NCBI GenBank assembly: GCA_007123055.1
Contig: SKSJ01000111.1
Location: 1 to 38,005, forward strand
Length of the DNA: 38,005 bases
Direction of reading: 5' to 3'
From: Wenzhouxiangella sp.
GTDB lineage: Bacteria > Pseudomonadota > Gammaproteobacteria > Xanthomonadales > Wenzhouxiangellaceae
Shown piece after piece: positions 1,969 through 36,473 of the stretch (position 1 is its first letter; each line of letters opens with the position of its first letter). The position numbers and the translations under genes are program-made. The notes beneath the pieces are model-generated. The model had not been told where the DNA came from, made no database searches, and saw only the letters and a list, made by a program, of their open reading frames with translations.

Positions 1969-2142
1969 CGCAAATGGGGCGGTTACGGCGGCTATGGCGT
2001 ATGCGTTTAATCAGCTTCCCAGCTCTCGCCGTCAAGTGCCGGATGATCTTAGGGAAAATATTTCCGGTCATCACGAAGGGAGACCGATAATTGGCGAGCG
2101 TGTAGAAGACGACCATGAGTTTCCCCTAGCATTTAGAACCAA

Positions 2143-2445
2143 CTGATTACTCAGATGATTCAGCCATATGTCGGTCGGAATTTTTGCGAACCGCAGATGA
2201 ACGCGGATTAACGTAGATTCAAGGGCTTGCAGCAGGAATAACAGCTGTAATCGTCCGCGCCCCGAGACGATCGCACTAATGTGTCTCAGCTCGTGGACGC
2301 ATGAAAGCCTGGGCTGTTCTTTGAATCGCTAACCCCAGCGCCTACCGATGAACCATGAGTCGGATCGAAAATTTGCGTTTATCGGGGTTCATCCGCGGTT
2401 TCATGATTCTATTCAGAATCATGGCTGAGAAACATGAGTAATCAG
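2143..2445. repeat. ~300-bp imperfect inverted repeat / nested palindrome (MITE-like or structured RNA)
   Basis: CTGATTACTCA (2143-2153) pairs with TGAGTAATCAG (2435-2445); TCAGCCAT (2160-2167) with ATGGCTGA (2421-2428); AACCGCAGATGAAC... with the complement of ...GTTCATCCGCGGTT (2388-2400); nested inner arms continue to a central loop near 2269-2282. Confidence 0.75.
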
Positions 2446-2592
2446 GTAAGGTTTTACCTGGTCGCTTGCTTGGGAAGAAAGTTTCGACACTGTTCGTCGG
2501 GGGTGCAACCCCGAGCTACAAGGGAAGAATTGAGTGCCAAGGGGCGGATTCTCGAGGGTTCAATTGAAGGCTTGGCTGCATTCCTTGACATG

Positions 2593-2645: not shown

Positions 2646-5444
2646 TCAGTCCTTCTTGTCGCCGTCCTTGTTCAGGCGGTAGATGCCGCCGCCTTCGGGT
2701 ACGGCCTGAGGCCGATCCTTTGGCTTGTCCTCGGATTTCGGCTTGTCCTGGCCGCCTGATTTTTCCTTGTTCTTGTCCTGTGTTCCGGGCGCCTTCTCGG
2801 CAGGCTTGCTTTCGCCCGAGTCCCGGGATGTCTTCTGCTTTTCCTTGCCGTCGCCGGAAGTTGTCGGCTGCTCAGGCTTGCGCTCCTTGCCGCTTTCCGG
2901 CTTTGCTTCGGCCTGAGCTGGCTTCTGTTCCGGGGGCTTTTCCTGCTTTTGGTCCGATTGCTTCTCCGGTTTGGGCTGCTTACCTGCACCTGAGCGGGAG
3001 TCGGATGGGCTTTCCGACGGCCTGGAGTGCGGGGCGGCGTTGGAACGCTGTGAGCCCTTGGGAGATTCCTGGCGATCCGGCTTTTGCTCACTCTTGCCTT
3101 CAGTCTGGCCAGTGGCAGCGGAGTCAGACTTCGCAGCGGGAGCGCTTTCGCCTTGCTTTTGCGGTTGCTGCCCGGAAGGCCTTTCCTGTCCGCGTGCGGA
3201 TTCACTTCCGGACCTCTGCTCGGACTTCTGCTCAGTCTTTTGGCCCGGTTTGGCATCTGCCTTGTCCTGCTGGCCAGGGCGATCGGCTGACTTGTCCTGC
3301 TTCGGTTGACGGCCGGACGGCTGATCGGACTGATCCCGCGCGGCTGGGCTGGACTGTTCGCCGCCGGTGCCCGCCGGCTTGCCGGAATCCGACTGCTGAT
3401 CACCGCTTGCGTGATTCTGCTGACCGTTCTGCTGACTGTCTTGCTGACGACCACCGCGTGAGCGTCGCTTCTTGCCGCCGCGACGCCGACGCTTTTTCTT
3501 CTTGGGTTGATCCGGTTGGCCGTTATCCTGCTGATTTGGCTTGCCGCCACGGTCGTCGTTCGCTTGTGCCGCTTTCTTCTTGCCGGTCTTTTTCTTGCGT
3601 GACGGCGGCTTGCGGTCATTGCCGCCCGACTTGTCCTTGTCCTGTTGCTTGCCGTGAGGCGGACGGCGATGCTGTCCGCTCACGGCCTTGCCGGAGCGCT
3701 TGCGTTCGTGCTTCTTGCCCTTGGTTCGCGGCTTTTTCCTGTCGGAGTCCTCCGATCCGCCGAATAGCTTGCGCAGGGCGGTCATGAGGCGTGCCATGAA
3801 GCCCTCGGGTTCGCGGCTGGGTGCCGGCGAGCTGGGACGCACGCCGCTGACCGCGGCCGGGGGCGGCGGAGGCGGGGGAGCAGCCTGGCCCTGTACTTCT
3901 CCGGCGGCCGTTTCCAGCTCTTCACCCTTGGCCAGCGCGTAGCTGGGCTCATCGACCGATTCGCTGGTGCGCAGGCGCTGGATCTCGAAGCGCGGTGTCT
4001 CGAGGTAGCGGTTGGCAACGATGGTGATCGGTACCTTGTTGCGTTGCTCGAGCTCGGCCATGGCATCGCGTTTTTCATTGAGCAGGAAGTTGCCGACCTC
4101 GATCGGGGTCTGGACGATGACCCGTGAGGTGTGCTCCTTCATCGACTCTTCCTCGGCCAGGCGAATGATGGACAGGGCCAGGGATTCGATCGAACGGATG
4201 GCGCCGTATCCGTCGCAGCGCGGGCAGGTGATGTAGCTGGACTCGCCCAAAGAAGGCCGGAGGCGCTGGCGGGACATTTCCAGGAGGCCGAAACGCGAGA
4301 TGCGGCCGATCTGCACCCGCGCCTTGTCCATGCGCATCGCCTCGCGCAGGCGATTCTCGACCTGGCGCTGGGCGTCCTTGCTCATCATGTCGATGAAATC
4401 GATCACGATCAGCCCGCCGAGATCGCGGATCCTCAGCTGGCGGGAAATCTCGTCGGCTGCTTCCAGGTTGGTGTGCAGGGCCGTTTCTTCGATATCCGCA
4501 CCCTTGGTGGCGCGTGCGGAGTTGATGTCGATCGACAGCAGGGCCTCGGTGTGATCGATCACGACCGCGCCGCCGGAGGGCAGGCGTACCTCGCGGGCGA
4601 AAGCCGATTCGATCTGGCTTTCGATCTGGAAGCGCGAAAACAGCGGCGTGGGGTCGCGGTAGGCCTTGAGCTTGCGCAGGTTGTGCGGCATGACCTGCTG
4701 CATGAACTCGCGCGCGTCCTCGAAGACCTTGTCGTCGTCGATCAGGATCTCGCCAATCTCCTCGCGCAGGTAGTCGCGCAGCGCACGGATGATGAGGTTG
4801 CTTTCCTGATATATGAGGAACGGCGCGGCCTTGGACTTGGCCGCCTCCTGGATGGCGCTCCACAGCTGCAGCAGGTAGTCGAGGTCCCACTGCAGTTCCT
4901 CGCTGTCGCGCCCGACGCCGGCCGTGCGCACGATCGCGCCCATGCCGTCGGGAATGCGGATATCGTTGAGCGTGTCGAGCAACGCCTTGCGTTCTTCACG
5001 CGTGATCTGGCGGGAGACGCCGCCGGCGCGCGGATTGTTCGGCATCAGCACCAGGTAGCGTCCTGCCAGGCTGACGAAGGTGGTCAGCGCCGCACCCTTG
5101 GTGCCGCGTTCTTCCTTCTCGACCTGAACGATGACTTCCTGGCCGCCGGACACGGCGTCCTTGATTTCGACCCGCTCACCGGCTTCGAGCTGCTTGATCG
5201 CCTTGTCGCTGAAGTACTCGCGACTGATTTCCTTCATCGACAGGAAACCGTGGCGTTCGGAACCGAATTCCACGAAGCAGGCGTCCAGGCTGGGTTCGAC
5301 GCGGGTGATGCGTCCCTTGTAAATATTGGCTTTCTTCTGTTCCTGGGCCGGGACCTCGATGTCCAGGTCCAGCAGGGTCTGGCCATCGGCGATGGCCACG
5401 CGCAACTCTTCTGGCTGAGTTGCGTTGATCAGCATGCGTTTCAT
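2646..5444 (-). CDS. rne: Ribonuclease E
   Basis: [30 protein letters not shown]...[25 protein letters not shown]1 domain, RNase E/G catalytic domain ([20 protein letters not shown]), CPRCDGYG Zn-link, and long K/Q/P-rich C-terminal half. Start chosen at the conserved MKRMLIN (5444) rather than the ORF start at 5543. Confidence 0.97.
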
Positions 5445-5609
5445 TGGTTTTGATTCCTCCGGCGCCCGGATGGCGAGAGTCGCCGGGGGAGACGGTGCCG
5501 GACATTGGCCGCGATTCCCCAGCCAAGGGGAACGGGGTAGCATAAGCCAGTCATCAGGCAGCTAAAGGGCTGCTGTCACGGCGGCCGGGTGTAGCCGCCG
5601 AATTGCCAA

Positions 5610-29523: not shown

Positions 29524-30480
29524 ATGACCAACCCCGACACCCACCCCGACAGCTCGCGTGCCAGCGATTGCCCGGCTCGTCCGGACCATCCGGTCATTGA
29601 ACGCATCGCGGCCAGAACGTCCACGCTGGGGCAGGGCATGACCATTCGGCGCGCGCTGCCGTCCCGAGCCCGGCGCATGATCGGCGCCTGGTGTTTTTTC
29701 GATCATGCCGGCCCGCTCCGCTACGAGGCCGGGCAGGGGATCGCGGTCGGTCCTCATCCGCACATCGGCCTGCAGACCTTTTCCTGGATGATCGAAGGTA
29801 GGATGCGTCACTCCGACAGCCTGGGCAATGATGTCTGGATCGCGCCGGGGCAGGTCAACCTGATGACGGCCGGCAGGGGGATTTCACATGCCGAGGAATC
29901 CGATCCGGATCGGCCCGGGCGTGTGCAACTGGCACAGTTGTGGATCGCGTTGCCCGACGCGCATCGTGACTGCGAGCCGGCTTTCGTCAATTACCCCGAA
30001 TTGCCGGTCAGCCATCGAGGCGACCTGGAACTCACACTGCTCGTTGGTGAACATGGTGATCGTGTCTCGCCGGTTCGCGTGCACAGTCCGTTGGTGGCCA
30101 TGGATATCCGCGCGACTGCAGCCGACGGCACCACGTTGTCACTGGAAAGCGGGTTCGAGTACGGCCTGATGGTGCTGGAAGGGGCTGCCAGCGTCGACGG
30201 TGAGCGCTTCGAGCCGGGTGAGCTGGCCTACCTGGGAGCCGGGCGAAGCATGCTCGACCTGTCCGTGGAAAGTGGCGGTCGGGTGTTGCTGATCGGCGGT
30301 GAACCGTTCGAGGAGGATATCCTGCTGTGGTGGAATTTCGTTGCTCGAACGCCCGAAGAAATCCAGCAGGCCGCGGCCGACTGGCAGGCTGGCCGACGAT
30401 TCGGTTCCGTCGAGGCCGCACAGACGCCACCCTTGCAGATGCCCAGCCTTGAGGGTGTTCGCATCAAATCGACGTCATGA
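29524..30480 (+). CDS. Pirin family protein
   Basis: IGAWCFFDHAGPLRYEAGQGIAVGPHPHIGLQTFSWMIEGRMRHSDSLGNDVWIAPGQVNLMTAGRGISHAEES: pirin cupin metal-binding motifs; SD-like GGGAGA upstream. Confidence 0.93.
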   Translation: MTNPDTHPDSSRASDCPARPDHPVIERIAARTSTLGQGMTIRRALPSRARRMIGAWCFFDHAGPLRYEAGQGIAVGPHPHIGLQTFSWMIEGRMRHSDSLGNDVWIAPGQVNLMTAGRGISHAEESDPDRPGRVQLAQLWIALPDAHRDCEPAFVNYPELPVSHRGDLELTLLVGEHGDRVSPVRVHSPLVAMDIRATAADGTTLSLESGFEYGLMVLEGAASVDGERFEPGELAYLGAGRSMLDLSVESGGRVLLIGGEPFEEDILLWWNFVARTPEEIQQAAADWQAGRRFGSVEAAQTPPLQMPSLEGVRIKSTS

Positions 30481-30521
30481 TGCTTCCGGGAAAGGAATCG
30501 CCTGCACCGGGGAAGCCCGTG

Positions 30522-33500
30522 ATGACGCAACGCTTCAGCCTGGCATGGATGATGATCGCCCTGTTGCTGGGGGGGTGCAATGGCGTCGATGAATCCGATG
30601 CCGGCGCTGCCGATAAGCAGGTCAGTGAACGCGCGCCGATCGGGTTGAACCGGCTGGAGTCCTTTCCGGGCAGGCTCGTTGACGGCACCGCGCATGACGA
30701 GCCCCATGAACGTCCCGAGGTGGTGCCCACCCGACCGCTGGATGATGAGCGAGTCCGCCGGTTGCTCGAGCGCATCGAGCCCCTGCCGTCGGAGGTCGAG
30801 GACGAACGCGACTTCGCGCTGAGGCCGGACAGCGACCCGCCGCCGCGCGCCGGTGCCGTCATCCGCGACGAGTTCCCGCCCGAGGACCAACGTCGGCCAC
30901 CGGATCCCGAGACCCCCGAAGGACCCGCCCAGGTATTGCGTTACTCACCCGAGGGCGAGGTGCCGATCGCCGGTCAGGTCAGCATCACCTTCGACCGGCC
31001 GATGGTGGCGGTCAGCGCTCATGACGACCTTGCCGAAAGGGACGTGCCGGTAGAACTCGAACCCGAGATTCCCGGGCGCTGGCGCTGGATCGGCACGCGA
31101 ACGCTGGTTTTTGACCCCGACGCTTCACGTTTGCCCATGGCCACGGAGTTCGACGTCACCCTGCCAGCGGGCACAACGGCGGCCGACGGCACTGAGCTGA
31201 CCGAGACCGTGACATGGCGATTCGCCACGCCGCCGCCAACGCTCGAACAGGTGCATCCCGGCGGCAACAGCATCGGCCTTAAACCGCTCATGTTCGCCGC
31301 CTTCGACCAGCGGATCGACACCACCGCCATGCTCGAGACGCTGGTCGTGGAAGCCGATGGCGAAGCGGTTGCCATTCGCGAGGCAACCACGGAAGAGATC
31401 GCCGCCGACAGGAATGTCCATCGTGCGATCGGTCGCCTCGATCCAGAGCGCGTCGTCGCCTTTCGAGCCGCGCAACCGTTCGAGCCGGACACCACCGTCA
31501 GCATCCGTCTGCCGGCTGGCAGCACTGCAGCCGAGGGCCCGCGCCCCACGACCGAGGATCAAGGCAGCAGCTTCCGCACCTACGGGCCATTGCGGGTGGT
31601 CGATCAACGTTGCGCCACGCGCGACTGCCGCCCCGTCGATGCCCTGATCATCGGTTTTTCCAATGAGCTGGCCGCTGACCAGGACTTGGTGGATCTGGTT
31701 GCCGTCGAGCCGGGGATTGCCGACAAGCATGTCAGCCTGCGCGGCAGCCGGCTCATGATCGAGGGGCTCAAGCAGGGCCGTACGGATTACACGGTCACGG
31801 TGTCGGAGGCACTGACTGACAGGTTCGGGCAGCAACTTGAAGGTCTGCGCGAGCTGCACTTCGAGACCGGCAGCATGCGGGCGAATATCGCCTTCCCGGG
31901 AAGCGGCCTGGTGACCCTGCCCAGGGGGCAACCGCCGAATCTGGCCTTTCATACGGTCAACTATCGCAATGCCCGAGTGCAGGTCCAAAAGGTGGAACCC
32001 GCCGACTGGCCGGCCTATGCCGGGCTGTTTCGCAACCGCGGTTTGTGGCAGGAGGAGCCGCCGGAGTTGCCAGGCGAAACAGTGACTGACGCGACGATGG
32101 ACTTCGCCGCCGAGCCGGATCGTTTCCGGCTTCAGGGCATTGATCTTTCGCCGTGGCTGCCCGAAGCCGGAAGCGGACATTTCGTGGTGCTGCTGGAACC
32201 CGGCACCGTCATCGGTTCCGAGCCGCGCTGGGCGCCGCCACGCCATGTCGCCTGGGTCCAGGTCACCGGCATCGGACTGGATGCGGCGGTCGACGGTGAC
32301 CGGATCCTGGCCTGGGTTACGGACCTGGACGATGGCGCGCCGTTGGCCAATCGGGCGATCAGGCTGGCGCCGGCCGGCGGTGCCGAACTCAGCGACCAGG
32401 AAGGCCTGGCATCTCTGGATCTGCCCGATGCCCGCGGCAACGCTTCGGGCACAGGCTGGCTGGAGGCGGTCGCGGACGACGACGTCGCCATCCTCCCCGA
32501 AACCGACCCTCTGCGGCACCGTGTGGTCTGGCGCGCTCAGGACCGGATCGACCAGGTACTCTGGCATGTCTTCGATGACCGCGCGATGTACCGCCCGGGA
32601 GAACGGGTACACCTGAAGGGCTGGATCCGGCGTGAAGAACGCCGAACCGACGGCGGGCTGGGGCTGGTCGACGGTCAACTGACGATACGCTACGAGGTGG
32701 CCGGCGCACGCGGCAACACCCTGGCCGAAGGCGAGACCGAAGTCGGTCGACTGGGTGGTTTCAACCTGTCCTTCGAGCTGCCCGACACGCCCAATCTCGG
32801 CCGTGCCCGCGTTCGGTTCAATCTTTCGGGCAGCCGGAATCTCGGCGGCACCGTGCATACGCACGCCTTCCAGATCCAGGAGTTCCGTACTCCGGAGTTC
32901 GAGGTCACGACGCGACGGGAGGAGGGGCCATTCGTCGGCGACACCACGGTCTCTGCCGAAGTCGAAGCTGCCTATTATGCCGGCGGCGCACTCGCCGGTG
33001 CCGAGACGACCTGGACGGTCAGCGCTCGTCCGGGTTACTACCGTCCACCCAACCGGGATGAATGGACTTTCGGCGTCGATAGCCCATGGTGGATGCCGTG
33101 GCCCGTCATCGATGTCGGCGCACCGGTCCGGGAGCGATTCGAGGGACTGACCGACGGCGGCGGCGTTCATGCACTCGATATCGACCTGGATATGAGCGGG
33201 CAGCTGCGCCCCCTGGCCATGAACGCCAGCGCCACGGTCATGGATGTCAATCGACAGGCCTGGAGCGCCACGTCGGATTTCATCGCGCATCCGGCAGCCA
33301 CGTATGTCGGGTTGCAGACCGAGCGGCAGTTCGTCGAGCAGGGCGAACCGCTCATGGTCGACATGATCACGGTCGATCTGGATGGCGAGATCATGCCGAA
33401 CCGCCCGGTGACGATGGAAGCGGCCCGCATCCAGTGGCAGTGGCGCGGGGGTGAGCGGCATGAAGAACTCACCGATGTCCAGCGTTGCGAGGTGCGAAGC

Positions 33501-36473
33501 GACGGACAAGGACTGGCGAGCTGTGAGTTTGTTCCCCGCCTGGGGGGACAGATCCGCATCACGGCCGTGGTCCGCGACGAGCAGGGCCGTGGCAATGCCA
33601 CGCGCCTGACACGCTGGGTCGGCGGCGGCCGGCTCCCGGCAGCCGATCGCGTCGACATGCAGGAAGCGCTGCTGATCCCGGATCGTGAAGAATACGCGCC
33701 CGGCGATACCGCCCGCGTCCTGGTGCAGGCACCTTTCGACGATGCCGAGGGGTTGCTGACTCTGCGTCGGCACGGTATCGCCGAGCAGCGGCGTTTCCGC
33801 ATCGACGGCGGTTCGAAGACGCTGGAGATCGACTTGCGCGAGGCCTGGATGCCGGGTATCGAGTTGCATGTCACCCTGGTCGGTCAGGCCGAGCGGGGCG
33901 AGGGCACCCGTCCGGCCATTGCCAGCGGACGCATTGATTTGCCCGTATCCGTTGCCGAACGAGTCCTCGACGTCGAGCTCATCCCGGCCAGCACCCGCCT
34001 GACTCCCGGCGAAGATACCGCGATCGAATTGCAGGTCCGTGATGCGACCGGCGAACCGGTCGGCGATGCCGAGATTGCATTGATCGTGGTCGACGAGGCC
34101 ATCCTGGCCCTGACCGGTTACGAGTTGGTCGATCCGCTGGGTGTATTCTGGCGGCAGCGTCCGGCCGATGTGCGCGATCACCACCTGCGCACCAGCGTGC
34201 TGTTGGCGGCACCGGATGAAGAAGACGCGATGGACAAACACCTGGCCCATGAAGCCGAGATGGCCGTGGCCGACCAGGTGCTGCGCTCGGGGGTGCCCCC
34301 GGGCGAGGAAGGAGCCGACGCCATCGGCTTGCGAGAGGACTTCAATCCCCTGGCTGCCTTCGTGCCGGCACTGACCACGGATTCAGAGGGCCGGGTGAGG
34401 GCCGAGATGTCCCTGCCCGACAACCTGACCCGCTACCGTGTCATGGCCGTGGCGGTTGCCGGTGCGACGCAGTACGGTACATCCGAATCGGCCATTACCG
34501 CGCGCCTGCCGCTGATGGTGAGGCCCTCGGCTCCACGTTTTCTGAATTTCGGCGACGAGATCGAACTGCCGGTAGTGCTGCAGAATCAGACCGACGAGGC
34601 CATGACCGTCGAGGTTGCCGTGGATGCAAGCAACCTCGAACTTAGGGCCGGGCGCGGCTATGCCGTCGAGGTGCCGGCCAACGACCGCGTCGCAGTTCGC
34701 TTCCCGGCCGCCGCCCGGCAGGCTGGCAAGGCCCGCTACCAGGTGGCAGCCGGCGCGGGCGATCATGCCGATGCCGCGCGTGGCGAATTGCCGGTGTGGA
34801 CGCCCGCGACCACTGAAGCCTTCGCCACTTACGGCGTGATCGACGAAGGCGCGCTGGTGCAGCCGATGATCGCGCCGAGTGAGGTCTGGCCGCAGTTCGG
34901 CCAGCTCGAGATCACCACCAGCGCCACGGCATTGCAATCGCTGACCGATGCCTTCATCTGGCTGTGCGACTACCCCTTCGACGCCACTGAGCCACTGGCC
35001 TCGCGCCTGCTGGCCATCGCCGCACTTGGCGACGTGCTCGAAGCGTTCGGGGCCGAGGACATGCCCACGCGCGAGGAGATCGAGCAGATCGTCGAAGCCG
35101 ACCTTGAACGCATCGCCGGACGCCAGAATCCCGACGGCGGACTCGGGCTGTGGCGGCGCGGCAACGAGTCATGGCCGTTCGTGTCCCTTCATGTAGCGCA
35201 TGCGCTGGTACGCCTGAACAACAGGAATTACCCCGTCGATGAAGCACTACTCGAGCGCAGTTTCAATCATGTGCGCGACATCGAGCGGCATATCCCGGCG
35301 CGCTACGGCGAGCGCGCCCGCCGTCATGTCATCGCCTACAGTCTTTACCTGCGCGGCCTGACGGGAGATTTCGACCGGGAACGGGCACGTGCCCTGCTGG
35401 CCGAAGTCGATGACCTCAAGGAGCTGACTTTCGAGGCCAGCGGCTGGTTGCTGGGCGTGCTCAGCGGCGACGAGGAATCCGGCGACGCGCTTGATGAGCT
35501 GCGCCGCTTCCTCGCCAACCGGGTGACCGAAACCGCCGCCAGCGCCCATTTCGCCGCCGGATTCCGGGACGGCAATCACCTCATCCTGCATTCAGACCGC
35601 CGCGCCGACGCCATCATTCTCGAAGCACTGATGCGCGACCAGCCTGATTCCGACCTGATCCCGAAGCTCGTAAACGGTCTTCAGGCTCACCGCACGCGAG
35701 GGCGCTGGTCCAGCACCCAGGAAAACGCCTTCGTGCTGCTGGCCCTCGACCAGTACTTTCGGCAGTACGAGGACCAGGAACCGAATTTCATCGCCCGTGC
35801 CTGGCTTGGCGAGGGGTTTGCCGGAGCGCATCACTTTGCCGGTCGCACCACCGACTATCACCACATCGACATCCCGATGGCATACGTTGCCGGTGACGGC
35901 GGTGAACATGACGTCGTACTCGACAAGGACGGGCCAGGGCGGCTGTATTACCGGCTGGGATTGCGTTACGCTCCGAAAAGCCTGCAACTGGAGCCGACCA
36001 GCCACGGGTTCGAGGTCCAACGACGTTACCGCGGACTCGATGACGATGACCACGTGCGCCGGCTCGATGACGGCGGCTGGGAGATTCGCGCCGGGGCCCG
36101 CGTGGCCGTGGAGCTCACCCTGGTGGCGCCCACGCGTCGTTACCACGTCGCCCTGGTCGATCCGTTGCCGGCCGGCCTGGAGGCCATCAATCCCGCCCTG
36201 GCGGTCAGCGCCGTGCCCGTGGCGGATGCGGCGGGGACTCACCGACAGGCTCGCGGCTGGTGGTGGGGACCGTGGTACCAGCACCAGAACCTGCGTGATG
36301 AGCGCGCCGAAGCCTTTACCAGTCTGCTTCCCGGCGGCGTGTACCACTACACCTATCACGCACGGGCCACGACGACCGGCGATTTCGTGGTTCCCCCGGC
36401 CCGTGTCGAGGAAATGTATCATCCGGAAACCTTCGCTCGCACGGGCTCGACGCGTGTTCGCATCATCGACTGA
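30522..36473 (+). CDS. Bacterial alpha-2-macroglobulin family lipoprotein, thioester site degenerate
   Basis: Lipobox MTQRFSLAWMMIALLLGGC; MG domains (FDDRAMYRPGERVHLKGWIRR, LREDFNPLAAFVPALTTDSEGRVRAEMSLPDNLTRYRVMAVAV), toroid region, C-terminal receptor-like domain. The ORF opens at 30477; start inferred from the signal peptide. Confidence 0.92.
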   Translation: MTQRFSLAWMMIALLLGGCNGVDESDAGAADKQVSERAPIGLNRLESFPGRLVDGTAHDEPHERPEVVPTRPLDDERVRRLLERIEPLPSEVEDERDFALRPDSDPPPRAGAVIRDEFPPEDQRRPPDPETPEGPAQVLRYSPEGEVPIAGQVSITFDRPMVAVSAHDDLAERDVPVELEPEIPGRWRWIGTRTLVFDPDASRLPMATEFDVTLPAGTTAADGTELTETVTWRFATPPPTLEQVHPGGNSIGLKPLMFAAFDQRIDTTAMLETLVVEADGEAVAIREATTEEIAADRNVHRAIGRLDPERVVAFRAAQPFEPDTTVSIRLPAGSTAAEGPRPTTEDQGSSFRTYGPLRVVDQRCATRDCRPVDALIIGFSNELAADQDLVDLVAVEPGIADKHVSLRGSRLMIEGLKQGRTDYTVTVSEALTDRFGQQLEGLRELHFETGSMRANIAFPGSGLVTLPRGQPPNLAFHTVNYRNARVQVQKVEPADWPAYAGLFRNRGLWQEEPPELPGETVTDATMDFAAEPDRFRLQGIDLSPWLPEAGSGHFVVLLEPGTVIGSEPRWAPPRHVAWVQVTGIGLDAAVDGDRILAWVTDLDDGAPLANRAIRLAPAGGAELSDQEGLASLDLPDARGNASGTGWLEAVADDDVAILPETDPLRHRVVWRAQDRIDQVLWHVFDDRAMYRPGERVHLKGWIRREERRTDGGLGLVDGQLTIRYEVAGARGNTLAEGETEVGRLGGFNLSFELPDTPNLGRARVRFNLSGSRNLGGTVHTHAFQIQEFRTPEFEVTTRREEGPFVGDTTVSAEVEAAYYAGGALAGAETTWTVSARPGYYRPPNRDEWTFGVDSPWWMPWPVIDVGAPVRERFEGLTDGGGVHALDIDLDMSGQLRPLAMNASATVMDVNRQAWSATSDFIAHPAATYVGLQTERQFVEQGEPLMVDMITVDLDGEIMPNRPVTMEAARIQWQWRGGERHEELTDVQRCEVRSDGQGLASCEFVPRLGGQIRITAVVRDEQGRGNATRLTRWVGGGRLPAADRVDMQEALLIPDREEYAPGDTARVLVQAPFDDAEGLLTLRRHGIAEQRRFRIDGGSKTLEIDLREAWMPGIELHVTLVGQAERGEGTRPAIASGRIDLPVSVAERVLDVELIPASTRLTPGEDTAIELQVRDATGEPVGDAEIALIVVDEAILALTGYELVDPLGVFWRQRPADVRDHHLRTSVLLAAPDEEDAMDKHLAHEAEMAVADQVLRSGVPPGEEGADAIGLREDFNPLAAFVPALTTDSEGRVRAEMSLPDNLTRYRVMAVAVAGATQYGTSESAITARLPLMVRPSAPRFLNFGDEIELPVVLQNQTDEAMTVEVAVDASNLELRAGRGYAVEVPANDRVAVRFPAAARQAGKARYQVAAGAGDHADAARGELPVWTPATTEAFATYGVIDEGALVQPMIAPSEVWPQFGQLEITTSATALQSLTDAFIWLCDYPFDATEPLASRLLAIAALGDVLEAFGAEDMPTREEIEQIVEADLERIAGRQNPDGGLGLWRRGNESWPFVSLHVAHALVRLNNRNYPVDEALLERSFNHVRDIERHIPARYGERARRHVIAYSLYLRGLTGDFDRERARALLAEVDDLKELTFEASGWLLGVLSGDEESGDALDELRRFLANRVTETAASAHFAAGFRDGNHLILHSDRRADAIILEALMRDQPDSDLIPKLVNGLQAHRTRGRWSSTQENAFVLLALDQYFRQYEDQEPNFIARAWLGEGFAGAHHFAGRTTDYHHIDIPMAYVAGDGGEHDVVLDKDGPGRLYYRLGLRYAPKSLQLEPTSHGFEVQRRYRGLDDDDHVRRLDDGGWEIRAGARVAVELTLVAPTRRYHVALVDPLPAGLEAINPALAVSAVPVADAAGTHRQARGWWWGPWYQHQNLRDERAEAFTSLLPGGVYHYTYHARATTTGDFVVPPARVEEMYHPETFARTGSTRVRIID

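Follow-up and report, generated by a model that had tools for sequence, protein, structure and literature searches.

The palindrome beside rne

The window (the whole stretch of Wenzhouxiangella sp. DNA analyzed here, 38,005 nucleotides) carries an imperfect palindrome at positions 2142-2446, in a non-coding gap beside the RNase E gene (rne). The genes bordering this gap are convergent: that of an MBG/Ig-repeat protein spans 61-1908 on the plus strand, and rne spans 2646-5543 on the minus strand, with its 3' end at 2646. Elsewhere in the window, positions 30477-36473 encode a 1,998-residue bacterial alpha-2-macroglobulin-like protein with A2M, A2M_BRD and bMG10 domains.

An initial annotation had described nested complementary blocks in the gap that could fold into one long hairpin. 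Inspection of the gap reveals all of these blocks, arranged as two long imperfect arm pairs with shorter pairs further in. The outer arms (2143-2167 and 2421-2445) are 25 nt long and 80% complementary, and the inner arms (2189-2219 and 2370-2400) are 31 nt long and 81% complementary. Folding of the 331-nt stretch yields -125.8 kcal/mol, whereas shuffled sequences give -90.8 +/- 5.3 kcal/mol (z = -6.56) and 0 of 100 of them fold as well as the real one. Given the arm pairs and a fold far better than that of the shuffles, the palindrome is confirmed and is not a product of chance. The small CGTCCGCG/CGTGGACG and GAGAC/GTCTC hairpins exist as described, but they are not a defining part of the unit. 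No ORF of at least 80 aa in the window's ORF list falls inside 2142-2446, in agreement with the earlier view that no convincing ORF lies there.

The palindrome is real, but it is not the single unit it was first taken for. It is made of two different inverted repeats, one nested in the other, each of which is found elsewhere alone. Its parts are listed below, where G018 is a closed Wenzhouxiangella genome and G029 is the genome with an orthologous copy.

2142-2446 (305 bp), no strand: whole MITE, non-autonomous, (A)CTGATTAC...GTAATCAGG; no ORF; ends taken from copies at unrelated sites, G018 and G029
2142-2168, plus strand: left outer terminal inverted repeat, IS1595-type; matches the TIR of a 1,029-bp IS1595-family IS in G018
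2421-2446, minus strand: right outer terminal inverted repeat; CCTGATTACTCATGTTTCTCAGCCAT on the minus strand, 0 mismatches to the pattern CCTGATTNCNNATNNNTCTCAGCCAT
2189-2219, plus strand: left inner arm; three ~10-bp iterons AACCGCAGAT / GAACGCGGAT / TAACGTAGATT; the repeat also brackets GxxExxY genes
2370-2400, minus strand: right inner arm; reverse complement AACCGCGGATGAACCCCGATAAACGCAAATT; iterons diverged, 81% complementary to the left inner arm
2220-2369, no strand: gene-less interior, conserved among the G018 and G029 MITE copies
2134-2141 (left, TAGAACCA) and 2447-2454 (right, TAAGGTTT), no strand: expected target-duplication flanks; 2 of 8 bases match

Outer ends shared with IS1595 elements

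The outer arms of the window element read CTGATTACTCA...TCAGCCAT. The end pattern CCTGATTNCNNATNNNTCTCAGCCAT was searched for in 61 related genomes with the reversed pattern as a control; it is present in 15 of them, versus 0 for the control. G018 carries an autonomous IS of 1,029 bp that shares these ends (C1:2155513-2156541, equivalent to L100:1014-2042) and lies between the two halves of a perfect 8-bp duplication, TAGGTGTT/TAGGTGTT. Its 319-residue reading frame contains an IS1595 DDE domain and a zinc ribbon, and the transposase matches NF033547 (E = 6.7e-59, 199 bits against a cut-off of 75) along with PF12762 and PF12760. G017 has another element of 1,029 bp that shares them (L072); both elements thus agree in ends and length. 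Members of IS1595 usually generate 8-bp duplications and carry a zinc finger, except in the IS1016 group (PMC8101967). Most elements with the outer ends carry no inner repeat (L071-L107), which identifies the outer ends as an independent family.

Among 24 elements with the same TIRs from related genomes, the window excluded, 19 are flanked by octamers with at least six of eight positions alike, and in many all eight agree, where the chance of a match of at least 6/8 is about 0.4-2.5% per element. IS1595-type elements in Wenzhouxiangella also often adjoin AARCCTTW-like octamers (L017, L018, L020, L032, L034, L089). This suggests a target preference, and the right flank of the window element, TAAGGTTT, fits it.

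The assembly that contains the window (2.47 Mb in 259 contigs, 81% complete) holds a single copy of the composite MITE, and neither a second copy nor an IS with the same ends was found in it. Further copies lie in relatives. G029 holds the orthologous copy (C207:252-556), 89% identical to the 331-bp query and with the same flanks. G018 holds about nine full or partial copies with unrelated flanks, where similarity ends at (C)CTGATTAC...GTAATCAGG. In all, the best-conserved part of the copies is the inner arms. A 304-bp copy at L037 has TAGAGGAA on either side and the copy at L048 has AAACGGAA on either side, both perfect 8-bp duplications, and the octamers flanking L036 match at 7/8. The expected target-site duplications are therefore present at the level of the family but not at the window copy, where the duplication is unrecognizable (TAGAACCA versus TAAGGTTT, 2/8), and the same holds for the G029 ortholog. 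Decay with age may be the reason, as both copies are presumably old. The search for a clean empty site in sister genomes came back negative: G018 lacks the MITE near rne, but its flanks there do not align. Matches to plasmid or phage DNA were also sought, and none was found, so that a plasmid or phage origin of the window element was rejected.

Inner arms and GxxExxY genes

The inner arm consists of three 10-bp units, AACCGCAGAT-GAACGCGGAT-TAACGTAGAT. The resemblance of the AACCGCAGATGAACGCGGAT core to an intergenic repeat of diverse bacteria, pointed out in the initial annotation, proved correct and led to iteron repeats linked to GxxExxY genes. Counts of the two-unit core, exact or with one mismatch and with reversed patterns as controls, give 79-114 copies each in G001, G002, G005, G014 and G018, 54 in G017, 36 in G024 and 41 in G034, which belongs to another genus. 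The remaining genomes have at most 10, and the reversed controls give almost none. That is to say, the inner repeats amount to hundreds of copies over seven sister genomes. In G002 and G017 they form mostly inverted pairs 39-223 bp apart, located between housekeeping genes and enclosing unrelated sequence, and inner palindromes without outer ends far outnumber the MITE copies. At conserved gene pairs, among them gltB-gltD and rpmA-obgE, G012 and further sister genomes have sites that lack the palindrome. No target duplication is discernible for the inner palindromes at these sites, where intergenic divergence would hide one if it were there.

In five genomes (G002, G014, G017, G018, G024), a GC-type repeat pair ~427 bp apart encloses a 124-126-residue GxxExxY frame (TIGR04256, PF13366 PDDEXK_3) positioned between carA and carB. 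The protein sequence at the G017 locus is identical to that of Wenzhouxiangella limi (L112), which gives the genus as Wenzhouxiangella. The inner arms of the window match the arms at L058, L063, L064, L066 and L328, which are inverted arrays of three ~9-10-bp tandem units. At these loci (L064:1458-1892 for one) the GC-type cassette separates carA from carB and seems to contribute the final codons of carA, whose reading frame, ending in ETADERG*, runs into the repeat. An intact GC-type gene goes with at least 20 repeat hits (5/5 versus 2/27 genomes, Fisher p = 1e-4) across 32 family-level genomes that are at least about 80% complete, where the p value is only a guide because the genomes are related. 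G003, in which AC arms bracket the GxxExxY gene, has abundant copies of the AC variant CCACAGATGAACACAGAT, but so do G010 (65 repeats) and G021, in which no gene of this type was detected. AC-type repeats thus go only weakly with an AC-type gene. Within the window genome (G000) there is no TIGR04256 hit. With no gene inside the palindrome either, the inner part of the window element can only be a gene-less derivative.

The arrangement extends well beyond this genus. Within Wenzhouxiangella and its family, arms that score above shuffles are present at every one of the 31 GxxExxY loci tested, which represent about seven orthologous sites. A scan of genome contigs with a ten-sequence alignment yielded 80 GxxExxY loci in Proteobacteria, Chloroflexi, Planctomycetes, Verrucomicrobia, Acidobacteria, Bacteroidetes, Spirochaetes and others. 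When the 250-bp flanks on each side of the gene were aligned with each other as inverted repeats, 41 of 72 GxxExxY genes reached a score of at least 40. Random windows drawn from the same loci never did so (0 of 720, Mann-Whitney p = 7e-33), and among other ORFs 1 of 117 had flanks scoring that high. The arm sequence varies by genome, and the common build is one of 9- or 10-bp tandem units (40 of 50 arms), with ACCGCCAAGACGCCAAGAACGCCAAG and GCCACGGATTTGCGCGGATTACGCGGAT as examples.

The GxxExxY protein has invariant D68, E78 and K80 residues in addition to the GxxExxY motif, which together fit a PD-(D/E)XK active site. A confident AlphaFold2 model (mean pLDDT 93.7) has SSO0001, LHK-Exo and lambda exonuclease as its nearest solved structures, of which SSO0001 (4ic1) is a Cas4 protein. 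The family is absent from PADLOC. In the open literature searched, which covers part of the journals, the protein is mentioned in passing, no description of the flanking repeats was found, and the iteron strings gave no relevant match. The gene types are confined to some seven fixed orthologous loci, the GC type to carA-carB. Mobility of the gene itself within the genus was therefore rejected, and GxxExxY looks vertically inherited within it.

Two further observations concern genes of this general build. At L327 (G005:C121), L333 (G024:C17:870430) and L336 (G027:C1:1599598) the GxxExxY genes are truncated or internally deleted with the iteron arms still there, which is gene decay with the arms remaining. 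Four-helix-bundle genes of TIGR02436, relatives of the 23S rRNA intervening-sequence protein, also stand between inverted short-unit arrays (L278-L295; for example L285:1501-1809, L287:1501-1809 and L284:1501-1818). Their arms have ~7-bp units (GGGAGAC, CAGGTTT, TCGGGAC) and exceed shuffles at 16 of 19 loci. This looks like a second, parallel arrangement of a gene plus inverted iterons.

A composite element and its relation to known systems

Several explanations for the window palindrome have to be weighed together. The initial annotation had left a structured RNA as one of its two options, and a structured ncRNA or a cis-regulatory hairpin of rne or its neighbor, kept for its fold, would account for the strong folding (z = -6.56) and for the retention of the same position in G029. 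Against this stand the G018 copies at unrelated places and the lack of any Rfam match near its gathering score. Covariation among homologous copies does not help either, since 8 of 72 consensus pairs are doubly changed and the covariation term, +3.67, is unfavorable. The element moreover lies between the 3' ends of convergent genes, in a gap where no promoter-like site was found. We consider a selected RNA very unlikely. As an old copy in a probably little-transcribed gap, the element would have its hairpin as a by-product of the nested inverted repeats.

The question of what moved the 305-bp unit turns on its ends. Were the GxxExxY system the mover, with the outer arms merely an older insertion around the inner part, one could understand why the inner arms are best conserved in the copies and why inner-only palindromes are far commoner. 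The 8-bp duplications, however, adjoin the outer ends, and the copies are alike all the way to those ends, making this account highly improbable. Hardly any credence can be given to the idea that the inner repeats are a RAYT/REPIN system and the whole palindrome a large REPIN. Paired intergenic inverted repeats 39-223 bp apart, with one gene per genome inside the same repeats, do recall that system, and RAYT genes can have GTAG repeats or other TIRs as flanks (PMC3733652). Yet no Y1_Tnp gene (PF01797) was detected in G001, G002, G005, G014 or G024, which have 36-114 repeat hits each; the AACCGCAGATGAACGC/AACCGCAGATGAACGCGGAT iterons, on reading, have no terminal GTAG or CGTC tag; and the bracketed gene encodes a PD-(D/E)XK-fold protein without an HUH domain. 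RAYT was likewise rejected as the mover of the inner repeats, most repeat-rich genomes having no Y1_Tnp gene.

The window feature is thus very probably an IS1595-family MITE with a captured gene-less GxxExxY-type palindrome as its core. The MITE part of this reading, which was the other option of the initial annotation, is well supported: the element has its TIRs in common with an autonomous IS and contains no ORF, and its family shows 8-bp target duplications and copies at different places. The IS1595 transposase of a full-length IS would bind the outer 26-bp ends in trans and move the element, and its transposition would leave the 8-bp target duplication that the anatomy and duplications of the family display. 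Two IS1595 ends presumably came to enclose the inner palindrome in a lineage where GC-type iterons are plentiful, and the captured core may then have multiplied as a passenger, chiefly in the G018 lineage. The window genome would retain one old copy, in a convergent gap that is probably little transcribed.

By analogy, GxxExxY may mobilize or disperse the inner repeats as RAYT is thought to do for REPINs. A broader proposal, to which we incline only tentatively and which falls somewhat short of probable, is that GxxExxY proteins are recombinases of undescribed, phylum-spanning mobile or self-dispersing repeats. Each gene would lie between inverted arrays of some three 9-10-bp iterons of a type peculiar to it and would spread gene-less palindromes of that type (39-223 bp) through the chromosome. 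Bracketing in many phyla, the identity of iterons in arms and dispersed copies, the co-occurrence of gene and repeats for the GC type and the lack of RAYT genes in most repeat-rich genomes argue for dispersal by GxxExxY; AC-type repeats that outlive or lack the gene in some genomes, a gene locus fixed within the genus and the lack of a discernible target duplication argue against it. Were the proposal correct, a Cas4/lambda-exonuclease-like PD-(D/E)XK enzyme would take the role that HUH transposases have for REPINs, and the window element would be one such palindrome taken over by an IS1595 MITE.

Viewed simply as an IS1595 MITE, the window feature is unremarkable. Its composite build, an IS1595 MITE with an iteron core, appears to be new. 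The core reveals a widely annotated nuclease-like family, its role unassigned, tied to its own inverted iteron repeats, a link seen in Proteobacteria as well as in Chloroflexi, Planctomycetes, Bacteroidetes and Spirochaetes. For one repeat type at least, copies are abundant where the corresponding GxxExxY gene is present. The link offers a candidate function for the family (repeat-specific DNA binding, cutting or transposition) and a possible explanation for intergenic repeats of the 'ACCGCAGATGAACGC / ACCACAGATGAACAC' type. Inner repeats dispersed by GxxExxY would, if real, be a new RAYT/REPIN-like system.

Like the insertion sequences and MITEs of the ISfinder family IS1595 (PMC8101967), the outer layer has 8-bp duplications and ~26-bp terminal inverted repeats, and its autonomous partner encodes a DDE transposase with an N-terminal zinc ribbon. 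Unlike them, the window MITE has only its ends in common with its IS, its core being foreign and built of GxxExxY-type iteron repeats. The inner repeats resemble REPIN/RAYT systems (PMC3733652, PMC8049555) in their many gene-less intergenic inverted pairs and in the single fixed-locus gene inside the same repeat. They differ in that the gene here is a PD-(D/E)XK-fold GxxExxY gene in place of an HUH tyrosine transposase, and in that the arms are 3 x ~10-bp iterons, in contrast to hairpins with GTAG tags. The core also resembles the surroundings of GxxExxY family genes (TIGR04256 / PF13366 PDDEXK_3), in that its inner arms match the iteron repeats on either side of those genes, whereas the window element is without the gene.
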